DNA of 36,971 nucleotides, from the IMG/VR virus record IMGVR_UViG_3300048061_000126, positions 1 through 36,971 of that record, one strand, 5' to 3'. The notes beneath the pieces are model-generated. The model saw only the letters and a program-made list of their open reading frames with translations. It searched no databases and was not told where the DNA came from. Within the stretch, counting starts at the first letter, position 1, and every line of letters begins with the position of its first letter. The stretch is from a virus. Shown piece after piece: positions 7,682 to 29,618 of this stretch. The position numbers and the translations under genes were made by a program.

Positions 7682-7707
7682 GAGTCATTATACCCCAGGG
7701 GGTAACA
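7682..7707 (-). promoter_or_regulatory. TATAAT box five bases before ATG; candidate leaderless promoter
   Basis: On the - strand TATAAT (7687-7692) is followed by GACTC and then ATG. Just upstream is ACCCCCTGGGG, nearly the same as the sequence before the TATAAT at 18729-18734 (ACCCCCTGTGA). No -35 TTGACA-like box is found at 16-18 bp. A second TATAAT overlaps the stop codon of the upstream gene. A start site six or seven bases after the box would fall on the initiation codon. Confidence 0.5.
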
Positions 7708-8484
7708 TTATAAGCCCAAATTAAGCGGGTCAGGGGTAGGTGCTGGGTCGGCTGGCTTTTTGTCTGGTATCGGTTCAGCACCCTCAAAGAGTTCTGAGGC
7801 GGGGATGGGCTGGCCAGTTATTTTGTCAATCATTCCAAGTGAGGTTGTAATGTTCTGGGCCTCCCTCGTCTTACCTTGTCGGAATAAATCCTGAGCCTTT
7901 TCATACTGCTCCAGGAAATTTTGTTGTTCCAGAACCTTAGTAGGGACACGTTCAGTCACCTGGCGAGGTATCTGACCTTTGAATAATCCATCTTGTGAAA
8001 TGATACCCTCTGGGCTAATCTTAATCTCACCTGGTCCAGACATCTCATCAATTAACCGAAGTGTGCCAGCAAGGTTTTGACCACCTAGTTCGGTATAGGC
8101 TTGCATGAAGTCCTGCTTATTCACCTTTCCTGTACCAGCTTCCGTACTGACACCTACTGCTTGATTTACAATGTTACGTTCACGCTCAATTCCAGCGTAA
8201 TTCATAATCAAAGCCGCCGTATTCGGGTCCTTGGCAAAAGATTTAGCCATCTTTTCGCCTTCTTCCGCGCCGAACTGCCCCGTAGTAAATGGCAGGATGG
8301 CTTCGTATCGAAGCTTTCTATCCTCTGCATTCTGCTTGTCAACCTGGTACTTGGTCACTGCTTTACCAATGTCCTCACCCAGGCTAGCCAATGCTTGACC
8401 AGTAATCATACCAGCCTTAGCGAATCCGCTTACGTCTGCTCTGCCCAGTTCTGGGCGTACTTGTGTTCCTACTTGAAATGCCAT
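7708..8484 (-). CDS. Internal virion protein (T7 gp15-like position)
   Basis: The 258-residue protein is not recognised by motif. The N-terminus (MAFQVGTQVRPELGRADVSG) and the segment MITGQALASLGEDIGKAVTKYQ look like virion proteins of podoviruses. The middle is helical and Gln-rich. The C-terminus is a Pro/Asp-rich tail (DKKPADPAPTPDPLN). It lies one base after the 440-residue virion gene and just before the 1327-residue protein, matching the gp14-gp15-gp16 order of T7. A role in the ejection apparatus is an inference from synteny. Confidence 0.65.
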   Translation of the reverse strand: MAFQVGTQVRPELGRADVSGFAKAGMITGQALASLGEDIGKAVTKYQVDKQNAEDRKLRYEAILPFTTGQFGAEEGEKMAKSFAKDPNTAALIMNYAGIERERNIVNQAVGVSTEAGTGKVNKQDFMQAYTELGGQNLAGTLRLIDEMSGPGEIKISPEGIISQDGLFKGQIPRQVTERVPTKVLEQQNFLEQYEKAQDLFRQGKTREAQNITTSLGMIDKITGQPIPASELFEGAEPIPDKKPADPAPTPDPLNLGL

Positions 8485-8485
8485 G

Positions 8486-9808
8486 TTACTTAATTTTGGT
8501 ATCCATCCATTTGCGGATGATTGATTTGAGTCCAGGTTTGTTGGAAATGAACTTAGCGAAGCGTTCCCCGAATTTTAGATACAGATTACGGAACCATGCG
8601 GGTGCATCATTCAGCATCCACTCACGGAACTGTAACCACTTCGGATTCTCTACGCCGTAGACCTCACGGGCTACCCAGCAAGCCAACATGACTGGAGCCG
8701 CAGCAGCACCTATTTTACCAATAGCGCCCATTAATCCAGCACTACGCGCAGCACTAGCTTGTGCCTGTGCGCCCTGGAACTCAATGTCCTGTGCGCGTTG
8801 TTGCATTGCCATATTGATACCCACGTTGGGGTCAAAGAGCTGAGGTCCCATTGGCTGTCCAGCGAGTCCAGTTGCCTGTCCAAGGGTCTGTCCACCTAGT
8901 CCAATAGCGGAAGAGGGGCGACCCAAGAGGGTCATACCAATGTCCCCAGCGATTGCTCGCTGTTGGCCGAATGCACCAGCACCAGCCTGACGAGCCTCCT
9001 GACGGAGACCAGCACGGAATTGTTCACGACCAAGGACCTCAGCCGCGGCGGCACTTTCATCGCCAATACGACCACTGGCCAGGCTTGCCTGTCTAGCGGC
9101 CTGCTGTGCGATTCTACGGCGTTCTGGGGATAGTTCACCCTCAGCCTCGCCAAAGAGACGAAGGGCCTGCTGCTGGGCAGCGTCAGCCAATGCTGTGCTG
9201 TATGGGTCCGCTTCACGGTAAGCCTCAACAATACGAGGGGCAAAGCCTTCGATTGCCCGAACATCCGCTTCACGCTGAATACCTAGCTGTTCGCGTTGCA
9301 GTTCGCCTGCTCGCATTGCCTGTTCCTCAAGCAAATCAAACACACCAGGAGTAGCCTCCTGGGTTCGCGTTGGGGAAAGTTGGGAAAGCCCCCTTGTAGC
9401 AGCATCAAGCTCGGCCTGTATTTTTTTGTATTCAGGGTTTTCCACCTCGTAGGGAGCGCGGTAAAGCCCACGTCTATGGCCCTGTTTGCCTGACTTATAC
9501 TTGACTAGTTGCGCTGGAGTGCTTTGTAGCTTTTGCTCTAGCTCCTGAACTTTTGCTGCCTGAGCAGCGTATTCGGGGTCCCCGTATTCACCCGCGGGTA
9601 GACCACGAGCAAAGGTAGCAATGTCCTGTAACTCCAGTGCTGCATAGCGAGGACGGTATTGTTCCTCCGCGCCAATGAGTCGCTCCTGTAATCGGGGGTC
9701 AGTGACACCCTGGTAGCCAGAGAACCCTTGGCCGAATAAATATTCACCCATTGACTTTCCTGGGTCAATCGGTGGTGGTGCTGCTGGTGCGCGTCCTTTG
9801 CCTCCCAT
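8486..9808 (-). CDS. Internal virion protein with conserved C-terminal helical domain (T7 gp14-like)
   Basis: The 440-residue protein starts with a Gly/Pro/Ala-rich segment (GGKGRAPAAPPPIDPGKS). It continues as long Ala/Gln/Arg-rich helices at about residues 40-350, including ERRRIAQQAARQASLASGRI. A hydrophobic stretch (GAIGKIGAAAAPVMLACWVA) follows. The last 70 residues contain AREVYG, KWLQFREWML and APAWFRNLYLKFGE, a domain I recognise from the ends of many phage virion and tail proteins. The hydrophobic segment would suit an ejection protein entering the cell envelope, as T7 gp14 does. AAGGA six bases before the ATG is one of the few good Shine-Dalgarno sites here. Confidence 0.75.
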   Translation of the reverse strand: MGGKGRAPAAPPPIDPGKSMGEYLFGQGFSGYQGVTDPRLQERLIGAEEQYRPRYAALELQDIATFARGLPAGEYGDPEYAAQAAKVQELEQKLQSTPAQLVKYKSGKQGHRRGLYRAPYEVENPEYKKIQAELDAATRGLSQLSPTRTQEATPGVFDLLEEQAMRAGELQREQLGIQREADVRAIEGFAPRIVEAYREADPYSTALADAAQQQALRLFGEAEGELSPERRRIAQQAARQASLASGRIGDESAAAAEVLGREQFRAGLRQEARQAGAGAFGQQRAIAGDIGMTLLGRPSSAIGLGGQTLGQATGLAGQPMGPQLFDPNVGINMAMQQRAQDIEFQGAQAQASAARSAGLMGAIGKIGAAAAPVMLACWVAREVYGVENPKWLQFREWMLNDAPAWFRNLYLKFGERFAKFISNKPGLKSIIRKWMDTKIK

Positions 9809-9817
9809 AATAATTCC

Positions 9818-10312
9818 TTATTTTGCTTTTAAGATTTTTGAAAATAGTTTAGTAGTGTATTCAACACGAGTCGGATTACCTTGGCGATAGCGAACTCCAA
9901 GGAGTTTCTTCGTAAGGCAATCAGGTTCGCGTTCAATAAATTTCAATAGCATTTGTTTCCACGCCGATGTGCTGGATGCGTACAAGAACGCCATGAATAT
10001 AGCGTCACCGTCAGGGGCATCCTCATTCCAGTTATATACAAAGCTCCACCCGTCATCAGCATCGCAATTATACCACATGAAAACCCCCTGAATGTCGGCC
10101 TCATCATCGGACATAACAACAAGCGTTCCCTTGGCTTGGTGATACGCAATGAGACTACGCAGGGCTTCATCCTCCCAGCCGTCAAGCACCTTGCCGTTTT
10201 CGTGTTCCTTGCAGTAAGCTACTACCTTATCCACGAACGAAACAAAGTGTGGCTGATTCCCTGAGTGAAGGGCAGCTACGGCTGAGTTAAGGACTGGATT
10301 ATCGACTTCCAT
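9818..10312 (-). CDS. GNAT-like small protein at the T7 gp13 position
   Basis: The 164-residue protein has alternating beta and helical segments: GTLVVMSDDEADIQGVFMWY, then FVYNW, then a helix with LYASSTSAWKQMLLKF, then VRYRQGNPTRVEYTTKLFSK. This is reminiscent of the GNAT fold. T7 gp13, which also precedes the gp14-gp15-gp16 block, has a comparable size and a GNAT-like look. I see no clear acetyl-CoA-binding motif, so an enzymatic role is not claimed. It starts within the stop codon of the fibre gene (TAATG at 10310-10314) and ends nine bases before the 440-residue virion gene. Confidence 0.55.
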   Translation of the reverse strand: MEVDNPVLNSAVAALHSGNQPHFVSFVDKVVAYCKEHENGKVLDGWEDEALRSLIAYHQAKGTLVVMSDDEADIQGVFMWYNCDADDGWSFVYNWNEDAPDGDAIFMAFLYASSTSAWKQMLLKFIEREPDCLTKKLLGVRYRQGNPTRVEYTTKLFSKILKAK

Positions 10313-10974
10313 TAGTATCCGATGGCTTGCCAGTGGTAAACAGCATTACTAGCAGGGTTACAAGCTATTTGTGTTGTGCTAAAAGAAGTGACCCCTAAAT
10401 TTGCAGTGTAATCCGCACCCACAGCACCCCCCTGAATATTTATAACAGCATTCGGAAAAGGTGTTGCAAAAGTAATTGTGCCTCCCGCTGCACTCAGGGA
10501 CGCTATACCCCATTTCATAATCAATCCATTAGGAAAGGTTACACTTTCTCCACCAGCATACGTGCTTGGCGTAAAGTTAGGTGCGGAATCCACATAAGCC
10601 TTAATGCTTTGCTGGGTAGCGAGAGCGGTCGCGCTGTCCGATACCATATCGTCCTCGTCCAGAACGCTGACTTCTTGTGGGGAAGTAGCCGAACCAGAGG
10701 TATTGCCAAGCACTTTCATGTCATCGACATCTTCAATCTTGGCTTTGGTTACATTGCTGTCCGAAATTTTGGCGGTAGTTACTGATGTATCAGCAAGTTT
10801 AGAGGTGGTCACGCCACCGTCCTTGACCACGATTGCTCCGTTACTGTCAACAAATGTGCTGGTTAAATCAACGGCATCGTTGCTGAAGGTTGCATTATCG
10901 AGCATGAGGTTCAGCTTGTCGGCTGAAAGCTGCTCGCCATTTGCGAAATTTTTTCCTGTTGTAATTACTGACAT
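10312..10974 (-). CDS. Tail fibre protein
   Basis: The 220-residue protein has an N-terminal section with short repeats (GVTTSKLADTSVTTAKISDS, then NVTKAKIED), which are typical beta-solenoid or trimeric fibre repeats. The C-terminal domain (FPNGLIMKWGI, TFATPFPNAV, AVYHWQAIGY) resembles the receptor-binding tip of gp53/gp37-type tail fibres. It follows another fibre gene by four bases. It probably forms part of a trimeric host-recognition appendage. The short length suggests it is a distal piece attached to another fibre or to the nozzle. Confidence 0.8.
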   Translation of the reverse strand: MSVITTGKNFANGEQLSADKLNLMLDNATFSNDAVDLTSTFVDSNGAIVVKDGGVTTSKLADTSVTTAKISDSNVTKAKIEDVDDMKVLGNTSGSATSPQEVSVLDEDDMVSDSATALATQQSIKAYVDSAPNFTPSTYAGGESVTFPNGLIMKWGIASLSAAGGTITFATPFPNAVINIQGGAVGADYTANLGVTSFSTTQIACNPASNAVYHWQAIGY

Positions 10975-10978
10975 GATA

Positions 10979-11590
10979 TTAAGCTGTTCGTTTCCACATG
11001 TGAACTACGATGTATGGCTGAAGATTGTTGTGAGCTTGTGTTGTACCAGCTGATGTTAATGTGCCATTTTCATCAGAGCCAGCCCCACCCGCATATTTTG
11101 TAAACTTTTGAAAAGCATCGGTGTCAGCACCATTAGCGGGGTTATCTACATCAAAGCCATTTGAATTTCCACCTGTGGTTCCAGAGGGCTGTATGCCTCC
11201 GTGCCTATGGCTAGGCATCTCAGTAATATCAAGCGTATGCGTCTTAGCCCCGCCAGTTTCTTCTGCTGTTTCGAAGTCAGTGTCCCCTGAATCAATACCA
11301 ACGAGTACACGACCAGCACCAAAGGCTACCCATGTCCCGAACCCTAACAGTGTAGCAGGGTTGGTTGCATCGCTGGCATTCATGTAAATGGAGCCAACGG
11401 GATATGCCGCAGCAAGAGCATCGCTAGCTAACTTACTACCAGCAATATCAGCGGATGCCGATATGTCTGCATTCACGATAGTTCCAGTATCAATGGCGGC
11501 TGTTGGGCTACCAAGGTCATTCAGGTCAGTAGATGTGACCTCATCAGTAGGGCCATAAACCTGGCCTGGTGTTACTGTTATTGTTGCCAT
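10979..11590 (-). CDS. Tail-collar-domain fibre protein
   Basis: The 203-residue protein contains a tail collar-like domain. YPVGSIYMNASDATNPATLL and GTWVAFGAGRVLVGID span about residues 63-100. MPSHRH follows at about 124-129, and NLQPYIVVHMWKRT closes the C-terminus. This pattern is shared with T4 gp12-type and other short fibre tips, where His residues bind metal in the trimer. The N-terminus (TVTPGQVYGPTDEVTSTDLN, then NADISASADIAGSKL) resembles fibre attachment repeats. Together with the adjacent 220-residue fibre it gives two separate candidates for adsorption specificity. Its ATG overlaps the stop of the nozzle gene. Confidence 0.85.
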   Translation of the reverse strand: MATITVTPGQVYGPTDEVTSTDLNDLGSPTAAIDTGTIVNADISASADIAGSKLASDALAAAYPVGSIYMNASDATNPATLLGFGTWVAFGAGRVLVGIDSGDTDFETAEETGGAKTHTLDITEMPSHRHGGIQPSGTTGGNSNGFDVDNPANGADTDAFQKFTKYAGGAGSDENGTLTSAGTTQAHNNLQPYIVVHMWKRTA

Positions 11591-14445
11591 TAGATTGCTT
11601 TCTGTGTTGAACGCATTGCGGTACTTCCCTCAGTCTCGATTGCTCGAATACGGGGTCGTCCGCTGGTGTTGTTGATTGTAAATTGTAAGCCGTATCCACG
11701 GCGGTTCCCTATTCTACCACGTATAGAAACATCTTCCCCAATAGGGAGTACGGTGGGTTCGTTCGATACTGAATCAACCGATGAGCCAGAAACAGGACTG
11801 GAGAACAAGGTAGTAAAGTTGTTGGATGCAAGCGTACTTGATATGGATTGATATACTGGAAAGAACGTGGATGTTTTGAACACGTAGATGATGGAGCCGT
11901 TGAATGAAACCGCTGGCAGGCTTCCAGCACCAGGACCATTAAGGCGGTAAACATCAAACCCATTGACTACTGAATCAAATACATATGTCCCGTTAAGGTC
12001 GGAATCCGAAAATCCAGACATCTGAACCACGCGCTGTTCAGTTTTATTGTAGTCCGACAATGAACCCAAGGATTCAACCGTATCGGGATTCTCTGTCTCA
12101 ATGTCAATATCAAAATCAGAGGTATTGTCCTCACTGGATTGAACATGAATATCGAAGTTCTTCCAGCGTTTGCGGTCCATGCTCCCGATAGTGTACTGAC
12201 GGGTCGTAAGGGCAGCGGGTATATCAATACCTTGAGCCTCGCCACCAATAAAGGTAACAATGCGGTCCTCTCCGTCCACGCGCTCATCCAGTTTATGAAT
12301 ACCGCCGAATCGGTTAATTGCATATACGCCACGCTGTTCACCGTCACCAGCTACCAAAAGGTTTTCAATATCCCAATCCGTACTACCAGTCGTATCAATG
12401 GACTCCCATTGTTTGTTCAGGAAATTAAATACCAGGATTGCGTTGTTACGAACAGCATTGTCCAGCGGGACAGCAATAAAGTAACGGTTATCAAAGTAAG
12501 TCGCAACTGATTGTTCCCATGCGTCCTTGTTGATACGCTGAATGGTTTCGTTGATTGGTTCACTTAGCGGTGTTTCAGTACCGCGAAGATTGTATTCATC
12601 AAGGAATTGGGTTCCGTACACGCCGTTATCCGAAAGGAATATAACTTGATTGCCAACCTGCCTAATGGACTTACGAGCTACGCACCCAACCTCGTTAGTA
12701 AGAAGCCGAGTACTTGCGCCCTGTAAGTTAGTGGTATTCTCGACAAGATGAATGCTGTTACGGTTAAACACCAGCAAACGGTCCTCGGCGAATGAGTGCA
12801 GTCCAACAACGAAGTCAGCCGTACCTGCATTAAAGCGGTACTGTGCGTAAATCTGGTCATAGGTATTACTGTCCAATATATCGGATGCAATTATTTCATC
12901 AAGGGCATCCTTGGATGTAAAGCTGTTAAGTGCATCATTGACAGTGAATCTGTACGGCATTACCAACCTTCGCTGGTGATATACCGCAAAAGGCGGTGCT
13001 GGCATGTGGATAAATCCTAGACCTACGGATACCTTGCGAGTAAATACTGGAGTAGATGTTAAACTTGCCCCATCGGTAATGTGCAAGTCAGTTTTGTTAG
13101 CGTCCACATAGAACTCGAAACCATGAGCCAGGGCTACTGTTTCATCGCCACTAATTGCAATACTTGGATTTTGCGGTACGTAGAAAACAATGTCATCACC
13201 TGATACATCAGAAACAAATCGGCTTCCGTCAATCTTGGTATCACCGAATCCCGCAATATCAATCGGGTCCCCTATGCTCCTGCCGTGACCCGCAGCAGTA
13301 ATTGTAACCTCGTAAAGAGTATCGTACTCCCCGCCAGAAATTAACTGCTTGACCGCCGCCGTGATTGAAGTAGTAGGTCCACCCTCAAATAGTTTCGCGA
13401 CAGTGAACTCCGAGCCAATAATCAGACCAGAGCTTTGGTCCGCATCCAATGTTTTGTCACCTACTACAGTAACAATGCTACCAACAGAAACACCATCTTC
13501 CTGATGCACAACGCCACGGTTCTCGATTAATGCGAACTCGCCTGACGCGCACACAATTTGTACTGGCTGAGTGTACTCACCACTAGCTACCCTAGTGAAC
13601 TCAGGTGTCCCAGAAAGGTCCCCGTCCCATTCAAGGGCAGTCTGACCGTTGCGGAAAATAAATACCTTGTTAAAGGCTTGAATCATATCTGACGCCACGG
13701 GAACGGTTTCGCCTACTGGATAAATAATGTCGGTAGTCTCCCCCGTTTTGAGGTTCTTGGCTACTACTTTTAAATTGGATGCAATCAAGAGGTACTGACT
13801 AGCATTGGAAGCTGGGTCACTGTACTCCGTGCTTGCGTAAACCTCGGTGACATTACCTTGGTCCAGGACCATGTTGAATCCAACAACGGCCTGGGTTGTA
13901 ATATCGTTCAAATCAAAAGGAAGTGTTTCGGGCAGGACAATGGCGGTTGTATATACTTCATCAGCACCAGTCAAGGCGTACGTAATCGTGCTAGTAGCAC
14001 CCGCATCAGTAATGCCAGTAATTGTATGTGTGCCATTCGGGTCAGTGCCAGTAAACTGAATACCCTCTACGGTAATCTCATCGCCAACCTGGAAGTCATA
14101 ACCTGGCTCCACTGCTGGCTCATTAAGAACAAGCGATACTACATTGCTCGTCAGGCTAGCGGACTCAATGGTAGTGGGCAGCATAGAAGTCACTCCATCG
14201 CCAATCTCGGCAGTAGTCGGAAGACGTTGTACGTCACCACCGACCGCAAACGGAGCCTCGATAAGCTCGATGCCCTTACGTACCTGCGCTTCACCGTTAC
14301 GGTCCAAGCGGATATTTTGGGCATCAGAAAGCATCCCCGCCTTAAGCTGGTCAGGGCGAAGGCGATTATTGAAACCAATAAAACCGACATCACCATCCTT
14401 GGCAACGCGGTCATCTCTTGCTCCGTATGAACGATATTCAGGCAT
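11590..14445 (-). CDS. Nozzle-like tail tubular protein (T7 gp12-like)
   Basis: The 951-residue beta-rich protein begins with a recognisable block: GFIGFNNRLRPDQLKAGMLS, then DAQNIRLDRNGEAQVRKG (residues about 22-60). This block is found in gp12-type tail tubular B/nozzle proteins and related large podovirus tail proteins. Later segments (VFRNGQTALEWDGD, VLVFNFLNKQWESIDTTG) are blade- or lectin-like beta sheets. In the virion it would form the distal tail tube that contacts fibres. Its neighbours fit: basic small proteins before it, two fibre genes after it. The assignment rests on the N-terminal block and synteny. Confidence 0.75.
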   Translation of the reverse strand: MPEYRSYGARDDRVAKDGDVGFIGFNNRLRPDQLKAGMLSDAQNIRLDRNGEAQVRKGIELIEAPFAVGGDVQRLPTTAEIGDGVTSMLPTTIESASLTSNVVSLVLNEPAVEPGYDFQVGDEITVEGIQFTGTDPNGTHTITGITDAGATSTITYALTGADEVYTTAIVLPETLPFDLNDITTQAVVGFNMVLDQGNVTEVYASTEYSDPASNASQYLLIASNLKVVAKNLKTGETTDIIYPVGETVPVASDMIQAFNKVFIFRNGQTALEWDGDLSGTPEFTRVASGEYTQPVQIVCASGEFALIENRGVVHQEDGVSVGSIVTVVGDKTLDADQSSGLIIGSEFTVAKLFEGGPTTSITAAVKQLISGGEYDTLYEVTITAAGHGRSIGDPIDIAGFGDTKIDGSRFVSDVSGDDIVFYVPQNPSIAISGDETVALAHGFEFYVDANKTDLHITDGASLTSTPVFTRKVSVGLGFIHMPAPPFAVYHQRRLVMPYRFTVNDALNSFTSKDALDEIIASDILDSNTYDQIYAQYRFNAGTADFVVGLHSFAEDRLLVFNRNSIHLVENTTNLQGASTRLLTNEVGCVARKSIRQVGNQVIFLSDNGVYGTQFLDEYNLRGTETPLSEPINETIQRINKDAWEQSVATYFDNRYFIAVPLDNAVRNNAILVFNFLNKQWESIDTTGSTDWDIENLLVAGDGEQRGVYAINRFGGIHKLDERVDGEDRIVTFIGGEAQGIDIPAALTTRQYTIGSMDRKRWKNFDIHVQSSEDNTSDFDIDIETENPDTVESLGSLSDYNKTEQRVVQMSGFSDSDLNGTYVFDSVVNGFDVYRLNGPGAGSLPAVSFNGSIIYVFKTSTFFPVYQSISSTLASNNFTTLFSSPVSGSSVDSVSNEPTVLPIGEDVSIRGRIGNRRGYGLQFTINNTSGRPRIRAIETEGSTAMRSTQKAI

Positions 14446-14690
14446 TAGCAGTTCCAGGCTCGGCGGCTCCAGTAGTTAGCAGATAGTTTGTTTGACTTGC
14501 CCTTGATGCCACCGCTACGAGCGCAGTAGCTTTTCTTACGGGCAGGGCGGTCCTTCTTGATTGTCATGTTAGCATCGCCGAAACGGATAAGCTTTTCCTT
14601 ACCACCCTCGCAGGCCTTCACGACAAATTTCTTCCCGCCCTGGACTTCACGGCGTGGCACGTTGCACTTCATCTTGGATTTATCAGCCAT
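14445..14690 (-). CDS. Small basic Cys-containing protein
   Basis: The 81-residue, strongly basic protein has four cysteines. The second half (KKDRPARKKSYCARSGGIKG, then LSANYWSRRAWNC) resembles small proteins I know from marine phage genomes, often annotated only as DUFs. It is the last of four tiny basic genes joined by TAATG overlaps or a short gap. The function is unknown. Nucleic acid binding or virion packing is plausible from charge alone. It starts in the stop codon of the preceding gene and ends in the start codon of the nozzle gene. Confidence 0.7.
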   Translation of the reverse strand: MADKSKMKCNVPRREVQGGKKFVVKACEGGKEKLIRFGDANMTIKKDRPARKKSYCARSGGIKGKSNKLSANYWSRRAWNC

Positions 14691-14962
14691 TATTTTTTGC
14701 GTACTGGTTTTACTCTTCGGGGTTTGCCCGCTGGTTGTCCGAGACTTTTCTTCTCAGCTACTTTCTTTTTCTTCTGCGATGGGGTCAGTTCACCCGCAGT
14801 CACAGGGGTTCTTGAGCTTACACGCTTCGATGGTCTGCAGTATGGCGTACCTCGCTTTTCTCCCGCTTGTCGTCCGCAGGGCTTTCCTGAGCGGACATCC
14901 ACCCAGTCCTCCTTGAACCACCGCCTGAGGGCTGCTCCTTCTTTTGTTTTTCGTGCAGCCAT
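14690..14962 (-). CDS. Small basic protein, DUF5872-like
   Basis: The 90-residue protein contains RRWFKEDWVDVRSGKPCGRQ and TPYCRPSKRVSSRTPVTAGE followed by LTPSQKKKKVAEKK. I associate this pattern with DUF5872, a family of unknown role in phages and algae. ATG at 14962 is preferred over an in-frame GTG at 15013. The GTG start would overlap the preceding gene extensively, while the ATG forms a TAATG junction and begins where conservation would be expected. The C-terminus is Lys/Arg-rich (PAGKPRRVKPVRKK) and probably disordered. Two Cys (PCGR, YCRPS) could bind metal. Confidence 0.65.
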   Translation of the reverse strand: MAARKTKEGAALRRWFKEDWVDVRSGKPCGRQAGEKRGTPYCRPSKRVSSRTPVTAGELTPSQKKKKVAEKKSLGQPAGKPRRVKPVRKK

Positions 14963-15096
14963 TACTTTGCATTCTTTCGTTTGCCCCAGTTGGCGGCTCC
15001 TACCTTTCGGCACTTAGCGATTGCCCCACTTGCATAAGCAGATGGGAAGACCTTGTAACGGGCCTTGACCTTTTTGTAGCAAGCGTCCTTGGGCAT
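14962..15096 (-). CDS. 44-residue basic microprotein
   Basis: The 44-residue protein has the core KDACYKKVKARYKVFPSAYA followed by SGAIAKCRKVGAANWGKRK. This sequence is familiar from many uncultured marine phages, always without an assigned function. It has two Cys, high positive charge and a compact aromatic core, so a small folded nucleic-acid or virion-binding domain is possible. Both ends are TAATG overlaps with neighbouring genes, strong support for translation despite its size. Confidence 0.75.
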   Translation of the reverse strand: MPKDACYKKVKARYKVFPSAYASGAIAKCRKVGAANWGKRKNAK

Positions 15097-15182
15097 TACT
15101 TACCTTTTACTTTGCAGCCACAACCCTTGCGCTCGCCGCATGAACCCTTACTTGCTTTACTTGCTGGTTTTCTTCCGTACAT
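15096..15182 (-). CDS. 28-residue Cys-rich microprotein
   Basis: The 28-codon protein reads MYGRKPASKASKGSCGERKG followed by CGCKVKGK. It is easily missed by length cut-offs. Support comes from AAGGA five bases before the ATG, a TAATG overlap with the 44-residue gene, and its place in a chain of basic microproteins. Three Cys within ten residues suggest metal binding. The function is unknown. Confidence 0.6.
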   Translation of the reverse strand: MYGRKPASKASKGSCGERKGCGCKVKGK

Positions 15183-15190
15183 ATTATTCC

Positions 15191-15744: not shown

Positions 15745-15989
15745 TAGATAGCCTCTGGGTCAGGGAATTTTACTTCTTCGACAGCATCTGCTTGCTCGAC
15801 TTCTGTGAGATTATATGTGTCAACAGGCAATGCCCACTTGGCTGCACCTACCAATGGTTTCTTGGTAAGGCGAGGGCGGGTAACGTAGCGTGAACCTTTA
15901 CCTACCTTGTGGTAAGCAAGCCCACGAGCGATGCCCTCCTGTTCGGAGCGGTCAATGCCTTCTTGTTCGGTTTCAAATAATAGATACAT
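15744..15989 (-). CDS. Small hypothetical protein
   Basis: The 81-residue protein is not recognised. It has an acidic N-terminal third (LLFETEQEGIDRSEQEGIAR), a basic middle (KVGKGSRYVTRPRLTKKP) and an acidic tail (VEEVKFPDPEAI). No membrane segment or signal is visible. It begins two bases after the adhesin gene ends and finishes in the start codon of the 53-residue holin candidate, so it belongs to the tail/lysis operon. Role unknown. Confidence 0.65.
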   Translation of the reverse strand: MYLLFETEQEGIDRSEQEGIARGLAYHKVGKGSRYVTRPRLTKKPLVGAAKWALPVDTYNLTEVEQADAVEEVKFPDPEAI

Positions 15990-15991
15990 GA

Positions 15992-18463
15992 TTAAGATAA
16001 GGTTATGCCGTATTCATCGGCGATGTTAGATTCAATGTCTGGGCGGTTAGCGGATTGGTCAGAGGTGTAAACCACGAACTCCTGCAAGGTTCCGTCCAGC
16101 CACGTATAGCCAGCAACTTCTCCACCTAGAACAATTCCACCATCTAATGAATTTTGGTTGGTTGCAGAACCTCCTAAACCAGACGCTACAATTTGCTGGT
16201 TTACGGGTATTGTCGTGATGGTAACAGGGGAGCCGTTGGCGAAATAGGTATTATGCCAAGTATAACCAGAAGCTCGTCCAAAAGCACCTCTATCAAGAGA
16301 GGATGCTGGCGTTCGTGCTACTGAGTCAGAATCGCGTCCACGATTAAAGACCGCAAAAGTAGCCAGAGGAAAGTCCGATGATGTGCCAACTGCGCCAGTT
16401 TCTAGGTAGGTATCAACCCCATTGAACTCAATAGCGATATTGGAACCTTCGGTGATTATGTTACCATTGGACACAATCTTGGGCTGGTATCCCTCTACTG
16501 CACTCTGCGAAGCATGGTTGCCGTTACCTGACTGGTCGTACCAAGTCTCAACGAATCCGTCCTCAGCAGGTGTATAGATGCCGTAGTGGTTGTTGATGTT
16601 GGACTCAATCTTGAAACGGTTGTCGGATTGGTCGGAGGAATAAAGAATAACTTCAGAAATTCCACCCTCGAAAAACCTAGTGACAGTTGGAGTGACACCA
16701 GTCTCCGAACCACCAAGTGTCAGCGTTCTGTTTGGAGTAATAGCACCTTGAGCATTTGCCCCGCTGGTTTCATTGCCACCATTGTAAAAGGAAGTAATGG
16801 TGCTTGCCGTCATAAAGGCAGTCGTGAGACTATTCACACCACCAACAGTCGTTGCAGTATTATCGACATTAGAAGACACACTAGGTATTCGTACCTGAGT
16901 CCTGAATGTATTGCTTGGGTCATTATAAAACAATCCGTAGCCTTGGCTAGAACCGTCCAAAACACCATTACCGATGAATGGTCTAAATCCAGTCAGGGTT
17001 GAATCAAACCGATTTACGCAAAAGAACGAAACTGGTATCTGCTCCTGCAAAGAAGTGGTTTGCAAATATTTTGAACCAGCAAAATCAATATCATCCAGCA
17101 AGCTACCCGCCTCAGCAATCTTGGGCTGGTCGCCAGCAGTATCCTGCGTTGCGTCATAGCCATTGACTGATTGGTCATACCATGTGACTACGTATGCGTC
17201 ATGGTTATACGGAACATTGACGGAAAAATTGCTGACCACATAATCTGCCGAAGCCGTAATAAATAGCATCGCCTTGAAGTCAGCGGTTGAAGTAAGCGTA
17301 AATGACTTGCTTCCGCTTGTAGTAATAGTTTCATCGTTAGAAACGTCTGACCCTGTTTCAAAATCGGGTCTTAGTTTTATTGATACCGTACCGCTATTAA
17401 GAGTAATATCAAAGGACACTTGTACCGCAGTTCCGCTCGTTCCCGCTATGTCAAAACCACAAGCGGCAATATTATTCGTAACAGCAGTAAATCCCGTTGT
17501 TCCGTCTGGAGTAAGGGTATCATACCTAGCTGAACCAGTTCTGTTTCGTGCTGGCGTAGCCTCAGTCAAGAACCCACCCAGCGTGGTCGCTGTGGTGTCG
17601 CCAGCGTCCTGCTGTTTACCATAGGAGCCGTTTGCAATAGCAAATACGTCACCAGTGGTAAGACCAGAACTATCGGCTGCGATAAAAGTTAATGCCGTTG
17701 GCGTATTAGATGTAACAGTGAACTGACCAGAAAATGTGTACCATGAATCCTCAGAAGGCATAGGCACATCACTGTGACCAATAGTAGTATTTCCTGAGCG
17801 AATACGCAAATCTGGCAACCCGCCTGTATTAGTAGATGCCCAATACACATCAAAGCTGTACGTAACAACATCACCAATTGCTACATCGCTTGTTGAAAAA
17901 TTCAAACCCAAAAGTCCAGAACCATCAAACGTGGCAAACAAAACATTATCCTTGCCATCCAATGTGTTGCCGAATGTAAAGGTAGCCCCCGAAATGCTGG
18001 ATGCAAACCCACCTGTGTCAGTAGCAAATCCTGACTCGCTGACTAATTCAATATCCTCAACATTGCTAATCGCAGAACTAGCACTTACCTCGTTATTGGC
18101 ATCGAACGCCACGTTGACCTCAACATTGTCAGAGGGTCTACGGATTTGTACAGCGTTACCTGTGTAGGCATCACGTACCTTACGAAGGCTGTAAGCAGCA
18201 GCAGCGGTAGCTACGTCAGCAGGAAGGGTATCCTCAAGTTTGCCGTTTACCCAATCCTCAAGCTCAAAGGAAACACCCTCGGCAGTGAAGTCCAACTCGG
18301 CATCATCACCGTCACGCCGTACACGAGCAACATTGTTCGCATCGCCATTCAAGGCACGAAGCGAATACGCAGCAGCCGCTCCTGGGAATGTTGGTAGGAG
18401 CTTGTCGCCAACCGTGCTAAGTAACGGTTGCCGTTGCAGAGCAGCGTCAAGGCTAATGTGCAT
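15992..18463 (-). CDS. Large modular LamG/concanavalin-like adhesin
   Basis: The 823-residue protein is built from repeats. Two AAAAYSLR modules lie at about residues 31-70 and 86-125. A beta-sandwich region follows at about 150-420. Two LamG-like lectin modules each open with WYDQS (about residues 425 and 640) followed by a QPKI segment. Each closes with a SDQS.NR..IESNI..YGI block, near 610-630 and at the C-terminus. LamG/ConA-type folds bind glycans or peptides, so the protein is probably a receptor-binding tail or head appendage. It lies between connector-type genes and the lysis genes. The duplicated modules suggest growth by internal duplication. Confidence 0.75.
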   Translation of the reverse strand: MHISLDAALQRQPLLSTVGDKLLPTFPGAAAAYSLRALNGDANNVARVRRDGDDAELDFTAEGVSFELEDWVNGKLEDTLPADVATAAAAYSLRKVRDAYTGNAVQIRRPSDNVEVNVAFDANNEVSASSAISNVEDIELVSESGFATDTGGFASSISGATFTFGNTLDGKDNVLFATFDGSGLLGLNFSTSDVAIGDVVTYSFDVYWASTNTGGLPDLRIRSGNTTIGHSDVPMPSEDSWYTFSGQFTVTSNTPTALTFIAADSSGLTTGDVFAIANGSYGKQQDAGDTTATTLGGFLTEATPARNRTGSARYDTLTPDGTTGFTAVTNNIAACGFDIAGTSGTAVQVSFDITLNSGTVSIKLRPDFETGSDVSNDETITTSGSKSFTLTSTADFKAMLFITASADYVVSNFSVNVPYNHDAYVVTWYDQSVNGYDATQDTAGDQPKIAEAGSLLDDIDFAGSKYLQTTSLQEQIPVSFFCVNRFDSTLTGFRPFIGNGVLDGSSQGYGLFYNDPSNTFRTQVRIPSVSSNVDNTATTVGGVNSLTTAFMTASTITSFYNGGNETSGANAQGAITPNRTLTLGGSETGVTPTVTRFFEGGISEVILYSSDQSDNRFKIESNINNHYGIYTPAEDGFVETWYDQSGNGNHASQSAVEGYQPKIVSNGNIITEGSNIAIEFNGVDTYLETGAVGTSSDFPLATFAVFNRGRDSDSVARTPASSLDRGAFGRASGYTWHNTYFANGSPVTITTIPVNQQIVASGLGGSATNQNSLDGGIVLGGEVAGYTWLDGTLQEFVVYTSDQSANRPDIESNIADEYGITLS

Positions 18464-18464
18464 C

Positions 18465-18722
18465 TTAGACCCTGTGCAGTGCTACTAGACCAGAGGAGAT
18501 TGTTACGCTGCTGAACGTACCATAAAGGATGGTTCCAGCGGCGAAGGTATCAACCAATTTGTCGGAGTTCTGTACGGAACTGGACGATGTAAGTGCAGAT
18601 ATAGTGGAATCCTTGAGGAACTGAATCGCTCCAAAAGAACCAGTAGTAGCACCAGCAGCGGCATCAATAATTACAGAACCAGCGGAGGAAAACTCCAGAG
18701 CATTATTTCGAGATTTAGCCAT
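18465..18722 (-). CDS. Small virion-associated protein
   Basis: The 85-residue, Ser/Ala/Thr-rich protein is predicted mainly beta: FGAIQFLKDSTISALTSS, then GTILYGTFSSVTISSGLVAL. Similar small proteins (QFL.D.TISALT ... GTFSSVT.SSGL) occur next to tail or adhesin genes in uncultured phages and may be decoration or fibre-base proteins. The gene is one base upstream of the adhesin gene and is led by a TATAAT box six bases before the ATG, so it opens a possible transcription unit with the adhesin. Confidence 0.6.
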   Translation of the reverse strand: MAKSRNNALEFSSAGSVIIDAAAGATTGSFGAIQFLKDSTISALTSSSSVQNSDKLVDTFAAGTILYGTFSSVTISSGLVALHRV

Positions 18723-18750
18723 GTCGGTATTATATCACAGGGGGTTTAAG
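18723..18750 (-). promoter_or_regulatory. TATAAT box six bases before ATG; candidate leaderless promoter
   Basis: On the - strand ACCCCCTGTGATATAAT is followed by ACCGAC and then ATG (TATAAT at 18729-18734). The first 17 bases differ from the site upstream of the 1327-residue gene at only two positions. The distance from TATAAT to ATG would put a normal start site on the initiation codon. No -35 box is apparent. Confidence 0.55.
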
Positions 18751-19371
18751 TTATCGGGATTGCCGATTACCATGAGTTGAAAATTTCTTATTGACGGTGT
18801 TGTTGTTTGCCTGTTTATCTAGACGTAACAATTCCCGACCAAGCATTATCTCAGCTTGCTGGGACGCCAGAACAGCCTTTTCAGTTTGACCATCGCCAGT
18901 ATAAAAATCAGCAAGGGCGGTATATATAATGTAATCCACGAACTCGCTTGGGATGTCAGTACTGTCAGGAGTATAACTAGGGTTGAACTCCTTCTTGTAA
19001 GTTACGAATGCAGATGAAGCATCCGCAGTCGTGAGGTTCAGTACGTGCGCCCCAGTTGAATCAACATAGAACTCAAACTCCAAGGCTGAGTTCCGCAGAA
19101 ACGGTTCAGTCCGATGGATTCTGAGAAACTCACCAATGGTATCCTTGCCACCTTCAGCATAAGGAATCGTCTGGGCAGGGGAGGACGAAATGGTTCTCTC
19201 CTCACCTATGACCAAGTATCGGGGCCACGCATCTGATTCATTGTATGCTCTTACCGAAGCACGATTAGTCGAGCTTTGCAGAAAGAACTCATCAGCCGAA
19301 GTCAATGTTTCAAGACCAGCAATGGCCTGGAAAGCATTCTTTACATCAGTAAATGTTACGTCAGACGGCAT
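18751..19371 (-). CDS. Connector / tail-adaptor protein, paralogue 2
   Basis: The 206-residue protein is clearly homologous to the preceding 251-residue protein. Both have an N-terminal F..IAGLETL...D.FFL..S.NR block, a WP....GE segment, a beta-rich middle and a helix with GDGQTEKA followed by QQAEIML. Proteins of this build resemble head-completion or adaptor proteins such as T7 gp11 or P22 gp4, which seal the portal and bind the tail. The two genes share a TAATG junction. A heteromeric ring or sequential rings are possible. Confidence 0.6.
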   Translation of the reverse strand: MPSDVTFTDVKNAFQAIAGLETLTSADEFFLQSSTNRASVRAYNESDAWPRYLVIGEERTISSSPAQTIPYAEGGKDTIGEFLRIHRTEPFLRNSALEFEFYVDSTGAHVLNLTTADASSAFVTYKKEFNPSYTPDSTDIPSEFVDYIIYTALADFYTGDGQTEKAVLASQQAEIMLGRELLRLDKQANNNTVNKKFSTHGNRQSR

Positions 19372-20126
19372 TATTGTACGTTGTTACCGAGAACTGTTTC
19401 TGCTTGATTCAATGGTGTGCCACCAGCCTGAAGGTTGTGACGGCGGAATTGGGTCTGCGGACGGTACTGAAGGACATCGTGACGGAACTGACGGCTCTGG
19501 TTACGAACCTTATCAATCTCCATACGTAAAAGCAGTTCAGCATTCTGGTCCTCTACCTGAGCCTTGTCAGTCTGGCCGTCTCCGCGAAGGAAATCGGCGT
19601 AAGCACCAAAGGCGCAGTACTCAAAGAAGGCATAAGGAATATTCGGGTTATCGCCTGACTCATCCCCAAAGAATCCACTTGTGTAAGTTCCGCCATCGGC
19701 AATTACTGCATCAAGGTCCTTACGATAAGTAACGAAGACATCAATTGAATCAAGAACCGAAGGGCTTACGATTTTGACTGCGGGATACCCTGATGCGTTC
19801 GTCAATGAAACAAAGGTGTACTCCTCTGGATAACGTGTATCCGTTGGGTCCGTTTTGTGAATACGAAATACCACGTTAGCATCATTAGCTAAATCCACAC
19901 CAGTTCCATACGTCTGAATAGTATTGTCATCAGACGTTACAAGCGAAACAGATTCTCCAACAAGCGTAAAGTCAGGCCAGGGGTAACGCTCAAATGCGTT
20001 ACGCATACGGCGATTAACGGACTGCCGAAGAAAAGCGGCATCAGTAGTTTCGAGGGTTGCTAGACCTGCAATGGACTTGAAGCGTTCTTCAAGGTTATCG
20101 TACGTTGAGGTTGGGTAATTTGCCAT
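19371..20126 (-). CDS. Connector / tail-adaptor protein, paralogue 1
   Basis: The 251-residue protein carries the same pattern as the next gene: FKSIAGLATLETTDAAFLRQ followed by SVNRRMRNAFERYPWPDF near the N-terminus, then GDGQTDKAQVEDQNAELLLR near residue 190. It has an extra C-terminal tail of about 45 residues rich in Arg and Gln (RNQSRQFRHDVLQYRPQTQF). Position after the capsid genes fits a portal-tail connector. A TATAAT box lies six bases before its ATG at 20133-20138. Function is inferred from position and general fold pattern, not from a specific motif. Confidence 0.6.
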   Translation of the reverse strand: MANYPTSTYDNLEERFKSIAGLATLETTDAAFLRQSVNRRMRNAFERYPWPDFTLVGESVSLVTSDDNTIQTYGTGVDLANDANVVFRIHKTDPTDTRYPEEYTFVSLTNASGYPAVKIVSPSVLDSIDVFVTYRKDLDAVIADGGTYTSGFFGDESGDNPNIPYAFFEYCAFGAYADFLRGDGQTDKAQVEDQNAELLLRMEIDKVRNQSRQFRHDVLQYRPQTQFRRHNLQAGGTPLNQAETVLGNNVQ

Positions 20127-20146
20127 GGCGTGATTATATCAGATGG
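20127..20146 (-). promoter_or_regulatory. TATAAT box six bases before ATG; candidate leaderless promoter
   Basis: The whole 20-base gap reads, on the - strand, CATCTGATATAATCACGCC and then ATG. TATAAT is at 20133-20138 and the spacer to ATG is six bases, as in the gap at 18723-18750. The upstream part is a weaker version of the CCCCTGTGA block found there. Confidence 0.5.
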
Positions 20147-20455
20147 TTATGCTTTGTTCGGGCTTAGTTCGGGGTACTTCTTGTTGTAGTACTGTAGAAA
20201 TTTTTTGGAATGAACTTCTTCATGTCCGTATTTTTGTGTCAGCCTGAAGAACTCACGGGCTGGCATAGTGGCGACAGGTTTTCCAAGCGTAGGGTGTTCA
20301 GTTCCTTTTAATGCTGTGGCTTCCTTGACGGCCTGATTGAATCTCTTTTGTTCGGTAGCTCGCTCCAGTGCGAAACCATTCTTGATTTCACGCATGAATG
20401 CGCGGTCAATCTCGCCATCCGAATACTTCTTTATATTGGGTACAATAATGTCCAT
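20147..20455 (-). CDS. Hypothetical protein after the capsid gene
   Basis: The 102-residue, basic, mostly helical protein is not recognised: DGEIDRAFMREIKNGFALER, then MPAREFFRLTQKYGHEEVHS and KKFLQYYNKKYPEL. It is separated from the major capsid gene by a terminator hairpin, so it may be expressed at a lower level than the capsid. Location between capsid and connector genes suggests a minor head protein. This is only positional. Confidence 0.6.
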   Translation of the reverse strand: MDIIVPNIKKYSDGEIDRAFMREIKNGFALERATEQKRFNQAVKEATALKGTEHPTLGKPVATMPAREFFRLTQKYGHEEVHSKKFLQYYNKKYPELSPNKA

Positions 20456-20459
20456 ATAG

Positions 20460-20490
20460 AAAAAGGGCGGGGGGAATATCCCCCCAACCC
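20460..20490 (-). terminator. Terminator hairpin downstream of the major capsid gene
   Basis: Read on the - strand, GGGGGG (20480-20485) and CCCCCC (20469-20474) form a stem closed by an A-T pair with a three-base loop. It is extended by outer GGG/CCC pairs across a small internal loop and followed by TTTTT (20460-20464). It lies in the 48-base gap after the capsid stop codon. Partial termination here would raise capsid expression relative to downstream genes. Confidence 0.8.
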
Positions 20491-20503
20491 AGATTCAATG
20501 CAA

Positions 20504-21535
20504 TTAGGCAGTTGCGACAATCTTGCCGTGCGCTCCTGGGTGGTAAACACCGAGGGTCAAGGCGCAATCAACGTAACCACGCTCACCGCCACCTTGGTTA
20601 GGCAGACGGGTGCTTCCCATTGGGATAAGCTCATGGATACCAACGTACTCAGGGTTGACCAAGTAACCAGACATTCCTGCTTGACCAGCTTGGGTCGGTG
20701 CACAGTCAGGGTTAGCATTTACAACCGAAACAACACCGTGGTCGCTTTGGTAGAGGTCAACGCTCAGCTTGATGCTTCCGCTTTCACCGTTGTAGTTCAC
20801 GTTACGAACGCTGTTGTCCGAGGAACCAGAGATGCGAGCGAAGTCGCTGATGTCATTACGAAGAGCGGTGTCAGCAACCAACATAAGGTTGTTGGAAGTA
20901 CCAGTTACACCGAAGATAGAAGTAATGATGGTGTTAAGCTCGGACTCAGCGAACTCGTCATCAGTTACGTCAGCAATCGAAGCAGCGGGGGCTTTGAAAG
21001 CATCGGGGATGTCGGCAGATGCTCCAGCACCACCAGTGTCAGCAGCGGACTCAATCCACTTGCCAAGTCCACGAAGGGCATAGGCAGTGTTAGTTCCGTT
21101 TTCAACAGCGCGGTCTTGTGCGCCAGAGATGGTAGCTTCAATGTCGCGTTTGAGTTCGCGGATGGACTTAGCTTCGGCTTGTGCAATCTTAGCGGGGCCA
21201 ACGGAATCAACAGCTTCCTGAAGGTCCGATACCATGTAGTCACGGCGGAACTTCTGGATGTAGTTTCCAAGGCGAGCGCGAGCAGCGAACTTGTCGTCAA
21301 AAGAACCTCCACCGTCAGTGACGTCAAAACCTTCACGAACACCAGCAGTGCTGGGGGTAGCGAGGCTGTCAACGGTCCACTCTACGAAAGTAGCGGATGC
21401 TTTTTGCTTGTTGGCACTCGAAAGAATAGGGGTTTCTTCAGGTGCAAGGATAGTAAGAACATCGGTGAGGTCCTCGCGGTTAGACGCGGCTGAACCACCC
21501 AATGCGGATGTGTCATATGTGTTTGAGAATGCCAT
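20504..21535 (-). CDS. Major capsid protein, SU10/DUF5309 type (HK97 fold)
   Basis: The 343-residue protein begins with the stretch NREDLTDVLTILAPEETPIL (about residues 19-38), a hallmark of SU10-type major capsid proteins. It continues with FVEWTVDSL, YMVSDLQEAVDSVG and IRELKRDIEATISGAQ, matching the long spine helix region of the HK97 fold. Length fits the family. It forms the icosahedral shell, assembled on the scaffold encoded just upstream. It has a TATAAT box 11 bases before ATG and is followed by a strong terminator, consistent with high, separately controlled expression. Confidence 0.88.
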   Translation of the reverse strand: MAFSNTYDTSALGGSAASNREDLTDVLTILAPEETPILSSANKQKASATFVEWTVDSLATPSTAGVREGFDVTDGGGSFDDKFAARARLGNYIQKFRRDYMVSDLQEAVDSVGPAKIAQAEAKSIRELKRDIEATISGAQDRAVENGTNTAYALRGLGKWIESAADTGGAGASADIPDAFKAPAASIADVTDDEFAESELNTIITSIFGVTGTSNNLMLVADTALRNDISDFARISGSSDNSVRNVNYNGESGSIKLSVDLYQSDHGVVSVVNANPDCAPTQAGQAGMSGYLVNPEYVGIHELIPMGSTRLPNQGGGERGYVDCALTLGVYHPGAHGKIVATA

Positions 21536-21567
21536 TTTAAATAATGATTATAAGTGAATGATTGTAA
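21536..21567 (-). promoter_or_regulatory. TATAAT box upstream of the capsid gene
   Basis: In the 32-base gap, TATAAT at 21547-21552 (- strand) is followed by an 11-base AT-rich spacer (CATTATTTAAA) and the capsid ATG. No -35 box is obvious. The spacer is longer than at the three candidate leaderless sites, so a short leader would be made. Confidence 0.45.
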
Positions 21568-22683
21568 TTAGCGGCGTGATGCCATTTTAAGTTTTCTAAG
21601 TTCGGCGAAATCGCGGGGGTTACCCGATGTTTTAAACCTGGCCTCTAATTCCTTAAGGGCCTTGGCGGTTCTTCCAGCCTGTTTTTCGGGCTGAGCAGCG
21701 GATGGATTTCCTGTCTTAGGTGGGCTAAGCGATGGGCTTGTCTTCTTTGTCTCAACGGGCTTGCGTCCATAGATACTGTTTACGCCATGAGCGAACCAGT
21801 AATCCAACTGAGATGCGATGTCAGGGGCCTCCTTCATCAGAACCTTTTTCAGGTCCTTGAATCGTTTGTCCCCAACGACTGCCTCGTATTGCTTGCGGGT
21901 GTCGTTGTCCTCACCTTGTAGCCATGCTAGTTCTTCTTGCGCTTGAGCCTCGAATGCTTGAGCCATTTGCTCAGATTGGGCTTGCGATTGAAGGACTTGC
22001 AATTGGGCTGGTAGGAATGTCTTCTGTGCCTTACGTGCTTGAAGCAATGCTTTCCGCACTTCGGCCTTCGTCATTTCTTTACCTTCTACTTCGGTTACTA
22101 CATCGTCCGCAGCATAGGCATCACTTTCAAAAAGGACATCCTCTGCCCACTCCACAATATTGCTGACTTCTTCCGCTTTCTCTTGCAAGCCTTCGATATT
22201 CTCGATGTTGCTGAAAGGGTTGTTCTCAACCTTCTTGGGTGCGTCCAATGGATTTTCCTTTTCCTTGAGCGAAGCCTCCAAGCGAGCTAACCGTTCTTCG
22301 GCTGACTTTCGTTTAGCTGTAAGCTCACCATAGCGAGCAACTGCACGACTGCCTAGCTTCTCGGCTAGTTCCCTTAACTCCTCCTCGGACATATCGTCCA
22401 GGTCCAACTGTGAAAGAACGTCTTCGGACTGTTCCTCGGTTGTCTCCTCGGTCTCCTCTTGAGTTTCCTCTTCGGTTTCCTCGATTACTTCCTCGGCTGC
22501 TTCCTCTTCGACTTCTTCGGATGCTTCCTCTACTTCCTCCACTTGGGGTTCAGCCTGAGCCTGCATCTGTCCGAGCCTGCGATTAGCAAGGTCCGCAACG
22601 GATATATTAGTATTGTCCACTGAATTTGTATCTGCCTCAGCGTTAGCAGTTGCGATTTCGTCTGTCATAATTAATCCACTCAT
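21568..22683 (-). CDS. Capsid scaffolding protein candidate
   Basis: The 371-residue, strongly acidic protein has a Glu-rich stretch at about residues 45-92 (for example VEEASEEVEEEAAEEVIEET). It continues into helical, coiled-coil-prone regions (KRKSAEERLARLEASLKEKE and a long Gln/Ala-rich helix near 215-260). The C-terminus is basic (RDFAELRKLKMASRR), as expected for capsid-shell binding by scaffolds. It lies immediately upstream of the major capsid gene, the standard place. A second in-frame ATG at 22668 would remove five residues, and neither start has a clear ribosome site. Confidence 0.75.
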   Translation of the reverse strand: MSGLIMTDEIATANAEADTNSVDNTNISVADLANRRLGQMQAQAEPQVEEVEEASEEVEEEAAEEVIEETEEETQEETEETTEEQSEDVLSQLDLDDMSEEELRELAEKLGSRAVARYGELTAKRKSAEERLARLEASLKEKENPLDAPKKVENNPFSNIENIEGLQEKAEEVSNIVEWAEDVLFESDAYAADDVVTEVEGKEMTKAEVRKALLQARKAQKTFLPAQLQVLQSQAQSEQMAQAFEAQAQEELAWLQGEDNDTRKQYEAVVGDKRFKDLKKVLMKEAPDIASQLDYWFAHGVNSIYGRKPVETKKTSPSLSPPKTGNPSAAQPEKQAGRTAKALKELEARFKTSGNPRDFAELRKLKMASRR

Positions 22684-22768
22684 TAACGCCGAGCGATGGC
22701 GATGGGCGCATTATAACACCCCTGTTTACAAATATGCGGAAACATATTTGCGGAAGTGATTTATCACC
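22684..22768 (-). promoter_or_regulatory. Regulatory gap with TATAAT and two inverted repeats
   Basis: This 85-base gap precedes the scaffold gene. It contains TATAAT (- strand, 22710-22715). It also contains a perfect inverted repeat with 8-base arms CAAATATG and CATATTTG (22729-22736 and 22743-22750), and a second one, GTGATTTATCAC (22756-22767). The two inverted repeats lie upstream of the TATAAT, where an activator or repressor would bind. They could also form RNA hairpins after the 72-residue gene. No T-run follows, so termination is less likely. Confidence 0.5.
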
Positions 22769-28986: not shown

Positions 28987-28994
28987 TGTCCTAG

Positions 28995-29022
28995 ATTAGC
29001 ATTGCTAATAACATAATGTCAA
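28995..29022 (-). promoter_or_regulatory. Late promoter candidate with palindromic operator
   Basis: On the - strand, TTGACA (29017-29022) and GCTAAT (28995-29000) are 16 bp apart. The -10 box is one arm of the perfect inverted repeat ATTAGCATTGCTAAT (28995-29009). The expected start site falls within a few bases of the ATG at 28986, so the message would be almost leaderless. A repressor bound to the palindrome would block this promoter until late infection. The -10 matches consensus at four of six bases. Confidence 0.55.
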
Positions 29023-29046
29023 GGGTATTAATGCACTATTTTCTAC

Positions 29047-29074: not shown

Positions 29075-29083
29075 CAAAGCCTA

Positions 29084-29577: not shown

Positions 29578-29618
29578 ATAAATTGTAGTCCTAACTTAAT
29601 TATTAACCAATAAATAAA

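Follow-up and report, generated by a model that had tools for sequence, protein, structure and literature searches.

How are the late genes of a phage transcribed and translated when several of their start codons stand directly behind a promoter-like box? The question is raised by the IMG/VR virus record IMGVR_UViG_3300048061_000126, all 36,971 bases of which were analysed here (the window). Its late arm, read from 28986 to 3698, occupies the minus strand, and the late promoters, genes, leader and terminator described below are on that strand. An initial annotation, made from the sequence alone, had pointed to a TATAAT hexamer in five of six late-arm gaps and had suggested that late messages are leaderless. 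All five hexamers are present (7687, 18729, 20133, 21547 and 22710), and three of them are spaced from the start codon as described, with TATAAT-GACTC-ATG at 7681 (5 nucleotides [nt]), TATAAT-ACCGAC-ATG at 18722 (6 nt) and TATAAT-CACGCC-ATG at 20126 (6 nt). The sites 7687 and 18729 do have ACCCCCTG.G.TATAAT in common, all five lack a -35 box, and the terminator placed in the sixth gap (20456-20503) is there as a GC hairpin and T run. A further TATAAT in the first gap, at 7707-7712, had gone unmentioned.

The window as a whole shows no enrichment of TATAAT, with 19 copies against an expected 15.1. The gaps themselves average only 0.6 with the hexamer when shuffled by dinucleotides, and five or more were reached in 2 of 5000 shuffles. 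The five sites are not one class: the full extended -10 sequence, TGnTATAAT, is found at 18729, 20133 and 22710, a detail absent from the initial annotation, and 7687 and 21547 lack the TGn. Our preferred explanation, to which we assign a probability of about 0.74, is that the late arm is divided into successive sub-operons, which the host RNA polymerase, carrying the housekeeping sigma factor, would transcribe from two promoter designs, one abutting the start codon and the other followed by a pseudoknot leader. In the first design the -10 box ends some 6-8 nt before the ATG, and the transcript would begin at the A of the AUG or as many as three bases before it; such a message would have no room for a Shine-Dalgarno (SD) sequence, and its 5'-terminal AUG would be recognised directly. 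We assign 18722 to this design as a strong case, 20126 and 28986 as good cases (the latter through its TTGACA) and 7681 as a weak one. In the second design, the promoter at 22710 would start transcription at 22703 and produce a 35-nt leader whose 5' end would fold into an H-type pseudoknot. A terminator downstream of the capsid gene would set the capsid message apart, and the promoter at 18729 would restart transcription for the downstream virion genes. The evidence for these proposals comes from sequence comparison, namely motifs, spacing, conservation, covariation and the terminator. The conserved internal promoters and the terminator make it unlikely that transcription begins only at the head of the operon.

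IMG/VR contains hundreds of relatives as judged by the capsid protein. A search of the phage collection for direct DNA relatives of the window found none, and Phage C75C1, with 66% identity in the capsid, is the closest sequenced relative by that measure. Conservation was tested with up to 80 loci per site, plus 18 longer relatives; the counts given below are of related sequences and are not independent.

Promoter A and the 85-residue protein

Promoter A (CCCCTGTGATATAAT, 18729-18743, with TATAAT at 18729-18734) is an extended -10 sequence without a -35 box, and its predicted transcription start is the A of the ATG at 18722. Among 84 distinct orthologous upstream regions, TGnTATAAT is present in 63, a -10 box with one mismatch in 4 and TATAAT without the TG in 1, with no box in the remaining 16. 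The distance from box to ATG in the 63 regions is 6 nt in 22, 7 nt in 7, 8 nt in 33 and 9 nt in 1, and a T directly precedes the ATG in 58 of them. When the regions are anchored on the box, a sharply conserved stretch extends from -23 to -5 (AnCCCCTGTGATATAATAC), and positions -38 to -24, which include the -35 region, are poorly conserved. The exact 17-mer CCCCTGTGATATAATAC occurs in 59 viral contigs, one copy each. Directly upstream of the extended -10 there is an ACCCC block (18738-18744) that is conserved in the phages.

The start codon of the gene behind promoter A (18465-18722, 85 amino acids [aa]) can be regarded as fixed, and a later start as ruled out, because the protein is conserved from residue 1 (M[AS][KS]SRNNALEF). 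RNA polymerase initiates about 7-9 nt beyond the -10 hexamer; with the box 6-9 nt from the ATG, the 5' end would therefore fall at the AUG or within about 2 nt of it. The space between box and ATG, 5-9 nt at the start-abutting sites, holds no SD sequence. There is a strong case that promoter A is a deeply conserved promoter, and its mRNA is predicted to be leaderless or to carry a leader of 0-2 nt. The product is a small beta-rich phage protein (AlphaFold predicted local distance difference test score, 88.8) that matches uncharacterised phage proteins only, and a fold search of the PDB with it returned nothing significant.

Start-abutting promoters at other genes

As the promoter A distances share much ancestry, recurrence of the arrangement at unrelated genes carries most weight. 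TGnTATAAT stands 5-9 nt before a start in 18 cases among 721 genes of 17 genomes, compared with 0.06 in shuffles. Thirteen are orthologues of the 18729 site; the other five, all at 6-8 nt, precede non-orthologous genes (the window gene at 20126, a gene in G018, genes for 492 aa in G002 and 639 aa in G016, and the portal gene of C75C1). The window case, promoter C (TGATATAAT, 20133-20141), lies 6 nt before the ATG of a 251-aa gene (19371-20126). It is kept in two relatives, L083 and L127, and a third, L109, has AACCCTATGCTATAAT at an equal 6-nt spacing; it is absent from the other relatives of the 251-aa gene that were read. It is reasonable to conclude that the spacing of promoter A has been repeated independently at 20133 and at different genes of other phages that carry the motif. 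The 251-aa gene and the neighbouring 206-aa gene (together 18751-20126) look like tandem paralogues with a common start, F..IAGL.TL....D..FL..S.NR; most relatives have a single copy of a different size, and promoter C accompanies the extra copy.

These spacings bear on whether 18729, 20133 and 7687 might be real promoters whose adjacent genes are mainly translated from a longer read-through mRNA, the abutting transcripts serving only genes further downstream. The close packing of the genes makes coupled translation possible, and 16 of the 84 lineages have lost promoter A and retained the gene. A promoter for downstream genes only, however, would have no reason to hold its distance from the ATG, whereas 63 sequences keep that distance at 6-9 nt although their spacers contain indels, and unrelated genes again show 6-8 nt. 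We therefore consider the read-through explanation unlikely.

Two further genes may belong to the start-abutting design. Candidate promoter D (CCCCTGGGGTATAAT, 7687-7701) differs from promoter A by two mismatches and is 5 nt from the ATG of a 1327-aa gene (3698-7681). A search of 15 records returned no DNA relative, and the five protein matches of this gene, which cover only about 40 residues, were set aside as uninformative on the promoter. With its 5-nt spacing, no TGn and no informative relative, promoter D is a weak candidate only. The last late-arm genes (distal tail region) of L012, L019 and L250, in a position comparable to 7687, have AACCC(C/T)TTATGATATAATAC 6-7 nt before the ATG. Promoter E (28993-29022) precedes the first late-arm gene (28423-28986) and consists of TTGACA (29017-29022), an 18-nt spacer and TAATCT (28993-28998), 6 nt before the ATG at 28986. 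When the upstream ATG is taken, TTGAC is found 28-32 nt before the likely start codon in 52 of 52 distinct relatives; the -10 hexamers are weak and poorly conserved among them. The -35 distance gives good grounds for placing the predicted transcription start at or just before the AUG. The region between the divergent arms (28990-29620) is about 600 nt long and mostly non-coding. On its plus strand are TTGACG (29047-29052), a 16-nt spacer and TGA-TACAAT (29069-29074), and it contains GC-rich stretches and T runs that suggest a structured early leader or RNA, with no Rfam match.

One apparent promoter was discarded. The sequence ATGTGGTATAAT, which in many relatives recurs downstream of promoter A at a distance of some 7-11 kb, was considered as a second late promoter but lies inside a 164-aa gene, where it reads in frame as M-W-Y-N. 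The window copy, TGGTATAAT at 10067-10075, is conserved and codes for the same residues; it is a decoy for promoter scans.

Start-abutting -10 boxes that yield leaderless mRNA are known from many bacteria as TA-led genes (Zheng et al. 2011, PMC3160421) and have been tested in Deinococcus (PMC12340547). A -10 box that would place the transcription start at the start codon in this way is found at 18729 (6-9 nt) and 20133 (6 nt) and marginally at 7687 (5 nt). Such a box is absent at 21547 (11 nt, not conserved) and at 22710, whose box precedes a conserved leader of 35 nt. Leaderless or near-leaderless messages, as proposed by the initial annotation, are well supported at 18722 by a conserved box and spacing, reasonably so at 20126 and weakly at 7681, and the proposal is not supported at 21547 and 22710. 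Both the TA-led genes (PMC3160421) and the "-10 region adjacent to ORF (open reading frame)" of Deinococcus-Thermus (PMC12340547) resemble the sites described here in having a -10 box within a few bases of the start codon, no need of a -35 box and an AUG at or near the 5' end, the latter two features being predicted in our case. Those sites are chromosomal with a loose TANNNT, whereas here a perfect TGnTATAAT with a C-rich upstream block serves phage virion genes in another presumed host phylum. The lambda cI mRNA is a leaderless phage message (cited in PMC9031893), and leaderless initiation in lambda is also treated in PMC3160421. The cI message starts at its AUG, as is predicted here, but cI is a single regulator, whereas the present arrangement concerns virion genes and is conserved across dozens of distinct phages.

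The scaffold-capsid leader and the capsid terminator

Promoter B (TGTTATAAT, 22710-22718) is also an extended -10 sequence without a -35 box, with what appears to be a different arrangement downstream. Of 76 distinct regions, 48 have the full TGnTATAAT within the 70 nt that precede the gene; in most of the others it differs by one or two changes. It is followed by a variable stretch of 6-7 nt and then by a strongly conserved block, ATCGCCATCGCTCGGCGTTAATGAGTGG, that mostly starts 7 nt past the hexamer. As this block begins where transcription should start, we read it as the mRNA 5' end (22703). The gene that follows (21568-22668), a probable scaffold judged by its position upstream of the capsid gene only, probably starts at 22668 (MTDEI...); we revised the start because in many relatives an upstream in-frame ATGAGTGG start reads only MSG before a stop codon. 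The 5' end of the scaffold message is therefore predicted to lie 35 nt before its likely start codon.

Within this leader (22669-22703) two stems would interleave as an H-type pseudoknot: stem 1 (S1) pairs CGCC (22698-22701) with GGCG (22687-22690), and stem 2 (S2) pairs CGCUC (22691-22695) with GAGUG (22677-22681). In an unbiased MAFFT alignment of 18 leaders, 94% of the pairs form and both sides change in 5 of 9 pairs (2 in S1 and 3 in S2), a result reached in 0 of 500 shuffles; the covariation test was also run on 12 sequences, again with 0 of 500 shuffles. Sliding the partner strand abolished the signal. More divergent leaders swap whole stems (CAUCC/GGAUG, CGCCG/CGGCG and CGUG/CACG), and a full 9/9 parse is obtained for 21 of 46 leaders, compared with 6% of shuffles. 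A looser parser was abandoned, as 90% of shuffles pass it, and only the fixed-column covariation and the full parse were used. Covariation thus supports an H-type pseudoknot in the scaffold-capsid leader. The element is present in a single copy per phage genome. Rfam gave no match in the window at gathering cut-offs and none at E<=5 in the leader region. A coding explanation of the leader (open frame SLGVNEW) was rejected on account of one-base length changes and compensatory pairs, and an inverted repeat upstream of 22710 (CAAATATG/CATATTTG) was rejected as an operator, being kept in the closest relatives only.

The pseudoknot would probably act in mRNA stability or in translational control of the head genes. 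The leader of phage T4 gene 32 likewise carries an H-type pseudoknot on the mRNA of an abundant phage protein; the one proposed here, from sequence, starts at the predicted first base and precedes the scaffold and capsid genes. More speculatively, the 22710 leader could represent a new family of cis-regulatory RNA, a 5'-terminal pseudoknot that adjusts the synthesis of scaffold and capsid by binding a phage or host factor. In T4, the anti-sigma factor AsiA shuts off -35-dependent promoters; if a phage anti-sigma did so here (TTGACA at 29017 and the plus arm), the late TGn/-10 promoters, being without -35 boxes, would stay active, and in a host poor in SD sequences leaderless starts would be well suited to the late phase of infection. 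We regard this extended scheme as doubtful.

The major capsid protein gene (20504-21535; PHROG 1328, E=2e-55; 66% identical to C75C1) has its TATAAT (21547-21552) in an AT-rich leader, 11 nt before the ATG. This box is not a conserved promoter: it is lost or altered in most of 80 relatives with capsid proteins >70% identical, the leader remaining AT-rich and variable, and it is probably due to chance. Could all of the boxes be chance products of AT-rich gaps that act as unstructured ribosome landing sites? This would be correct for 21547, where the AT-richness is kept and the box is not. It would also fit TATAAT exactly 3 nt before an ATG, which is common in relatives; we rejected such boxes as promoters because they sit in SD or AT-rich leaders and cannot be the -10 box of that AUG. 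As a general explanation it is very unlikely, given the rarity of five occupied gaps in the shuffles, and it is contradicted at 18729, where TGn, TATAAT and the C-rich block are kept across deep divergence, and at 22710, where TGnTATAAT is. Downstream, a conserved intrinsic terminator (20456-20490, hairpin and T run) separates the capsid gene from a 102-aa gene and is present in 110 of 121 distinct orthologous gaps.

The predicted order of the late arm is hence a start-abutting promoter, packaging genes, the pseudoknot-leader promoter, probable scaffold and capsid genes, the terminator, small genes, a start-abutting promoter and the downstream virion genes. An apparent gap at 15014-15190 contains two unlisted small reading frames: one, read directly from the sequence, encodes 28 aa and begins MYGRKPASK..., and the other is an extension, starting with ATG, of the 14690-15013 gene. 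One relative, L050 (IMGVR_UViG_3300025876_000019), has 70,525 bases, about twice the usual genome, and is possibly a concatemer or two joined genomes.

Polymerase and candidate host

Which polymerase reads these promoters? The housekeeping sigma factor recognises an extended -10 sequence with TGn, in Gram-positive bacteria in the form TRTGn (PMC2613000), and by sequence the core boxes are of this ordinary extended -10 (TRTGn) sigma70 type. They share with the sigma70 promoters of that study the TRTGnTATAAT core without a -35 box and differ in the conserved ACCCC block just upstream and in having the start codon at the predicted transcription start. The initial annotation had spoken of an extended or phage-modified promoter class. 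The first term stands; the second is not needed, as the boxes match the housekeeping form. A phage-modified late class, recognised by a phage factor through the C-rich block, has some attraction, since the ACCCC block is conserved beside the -10 box, has one match in 44 genomes of the candidate host family and is not a promoter feature there, and since a helix-turn-helix protein is encoded at 34258-34578 (a weak match). Against this, the TGnTATAAT core is already a full sigma70 extended -10, promoter B is mostly without the C-rich block, and no phage RNA polymerase, sigma factor or co-activator was recognised. We consider a phage-modified class improbable and prefer the host polymerase.

The candidate host comes from a search of 84,980 GTDB species genomes, which gave a single match, a 10-kb contig (CAKZOI010000043.1) in a metagenome-assembled genome (MAG) of the Opitutae. 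The contig has the same portal, scaffold leader pseudoknot and capsid, and in the candidate host family the pseudoknot element is found only in this phage-like contig itself. SD-like words before genes, compared with a control zone, amount to 8.9% versus 6.3% in the Opitutae MAG and 17.6% versus 9.2% in the phages. Members of the Verrucomicrobiota have been listed as SD-scarce (PMC10783764), and a phage of Opitutae, P8625, is known (PMC4642752). An SD-poor candidate host makes leaderless starts plausible without proving them.

Several observations weigh against our preferred explanation of two promoter designs read by the host polymerase. With the usual start at the seventh base, the 8-nt spacing would leave a 2-nt leader, so that the message would not be strictly leaderless. 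The loss of the box in 16 of 84 promoter A regions indicates that it is dispensable in some lineages, and a read-through mRNA could also yield the 85-aa protein. Plain folding of the scaffold leader favours S2 alone, with a stability no better than that of shuffles; as single-hairpin folding is unremarkable, the pseudoknot claim rests on covariation. The host assignment depends on one binned contig, which could be misbinned, and the Opitutae MAG shows no clear TANNNT peak before its own genes, so that leaderless initiation as a general habit of the host is unsupported.

Discussion of leaderless messages has mostly concerned cellular genes and a few regulators of phages, and leaderless genes with an adjacent -10 box are of a known kind; the novelty lies in the pseudoknot leader and in the fixation of such genes in the late arm of a phage. 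Here a start-abutting promoter of a virion gene is fixed in dozens of distinct marine phages whose candidate host group barely uses SD sequences. These phages may therefore offer a natural test of how initiation without SD sequences performs at high expression. Their genomes also carry a second solution, in which the scaffold-capsid message has a pseudoknot leader without a counterpart in Rfam, and both designs predict exact 5' ends, at 18722 or up to 2 nt upstream and at 22703.

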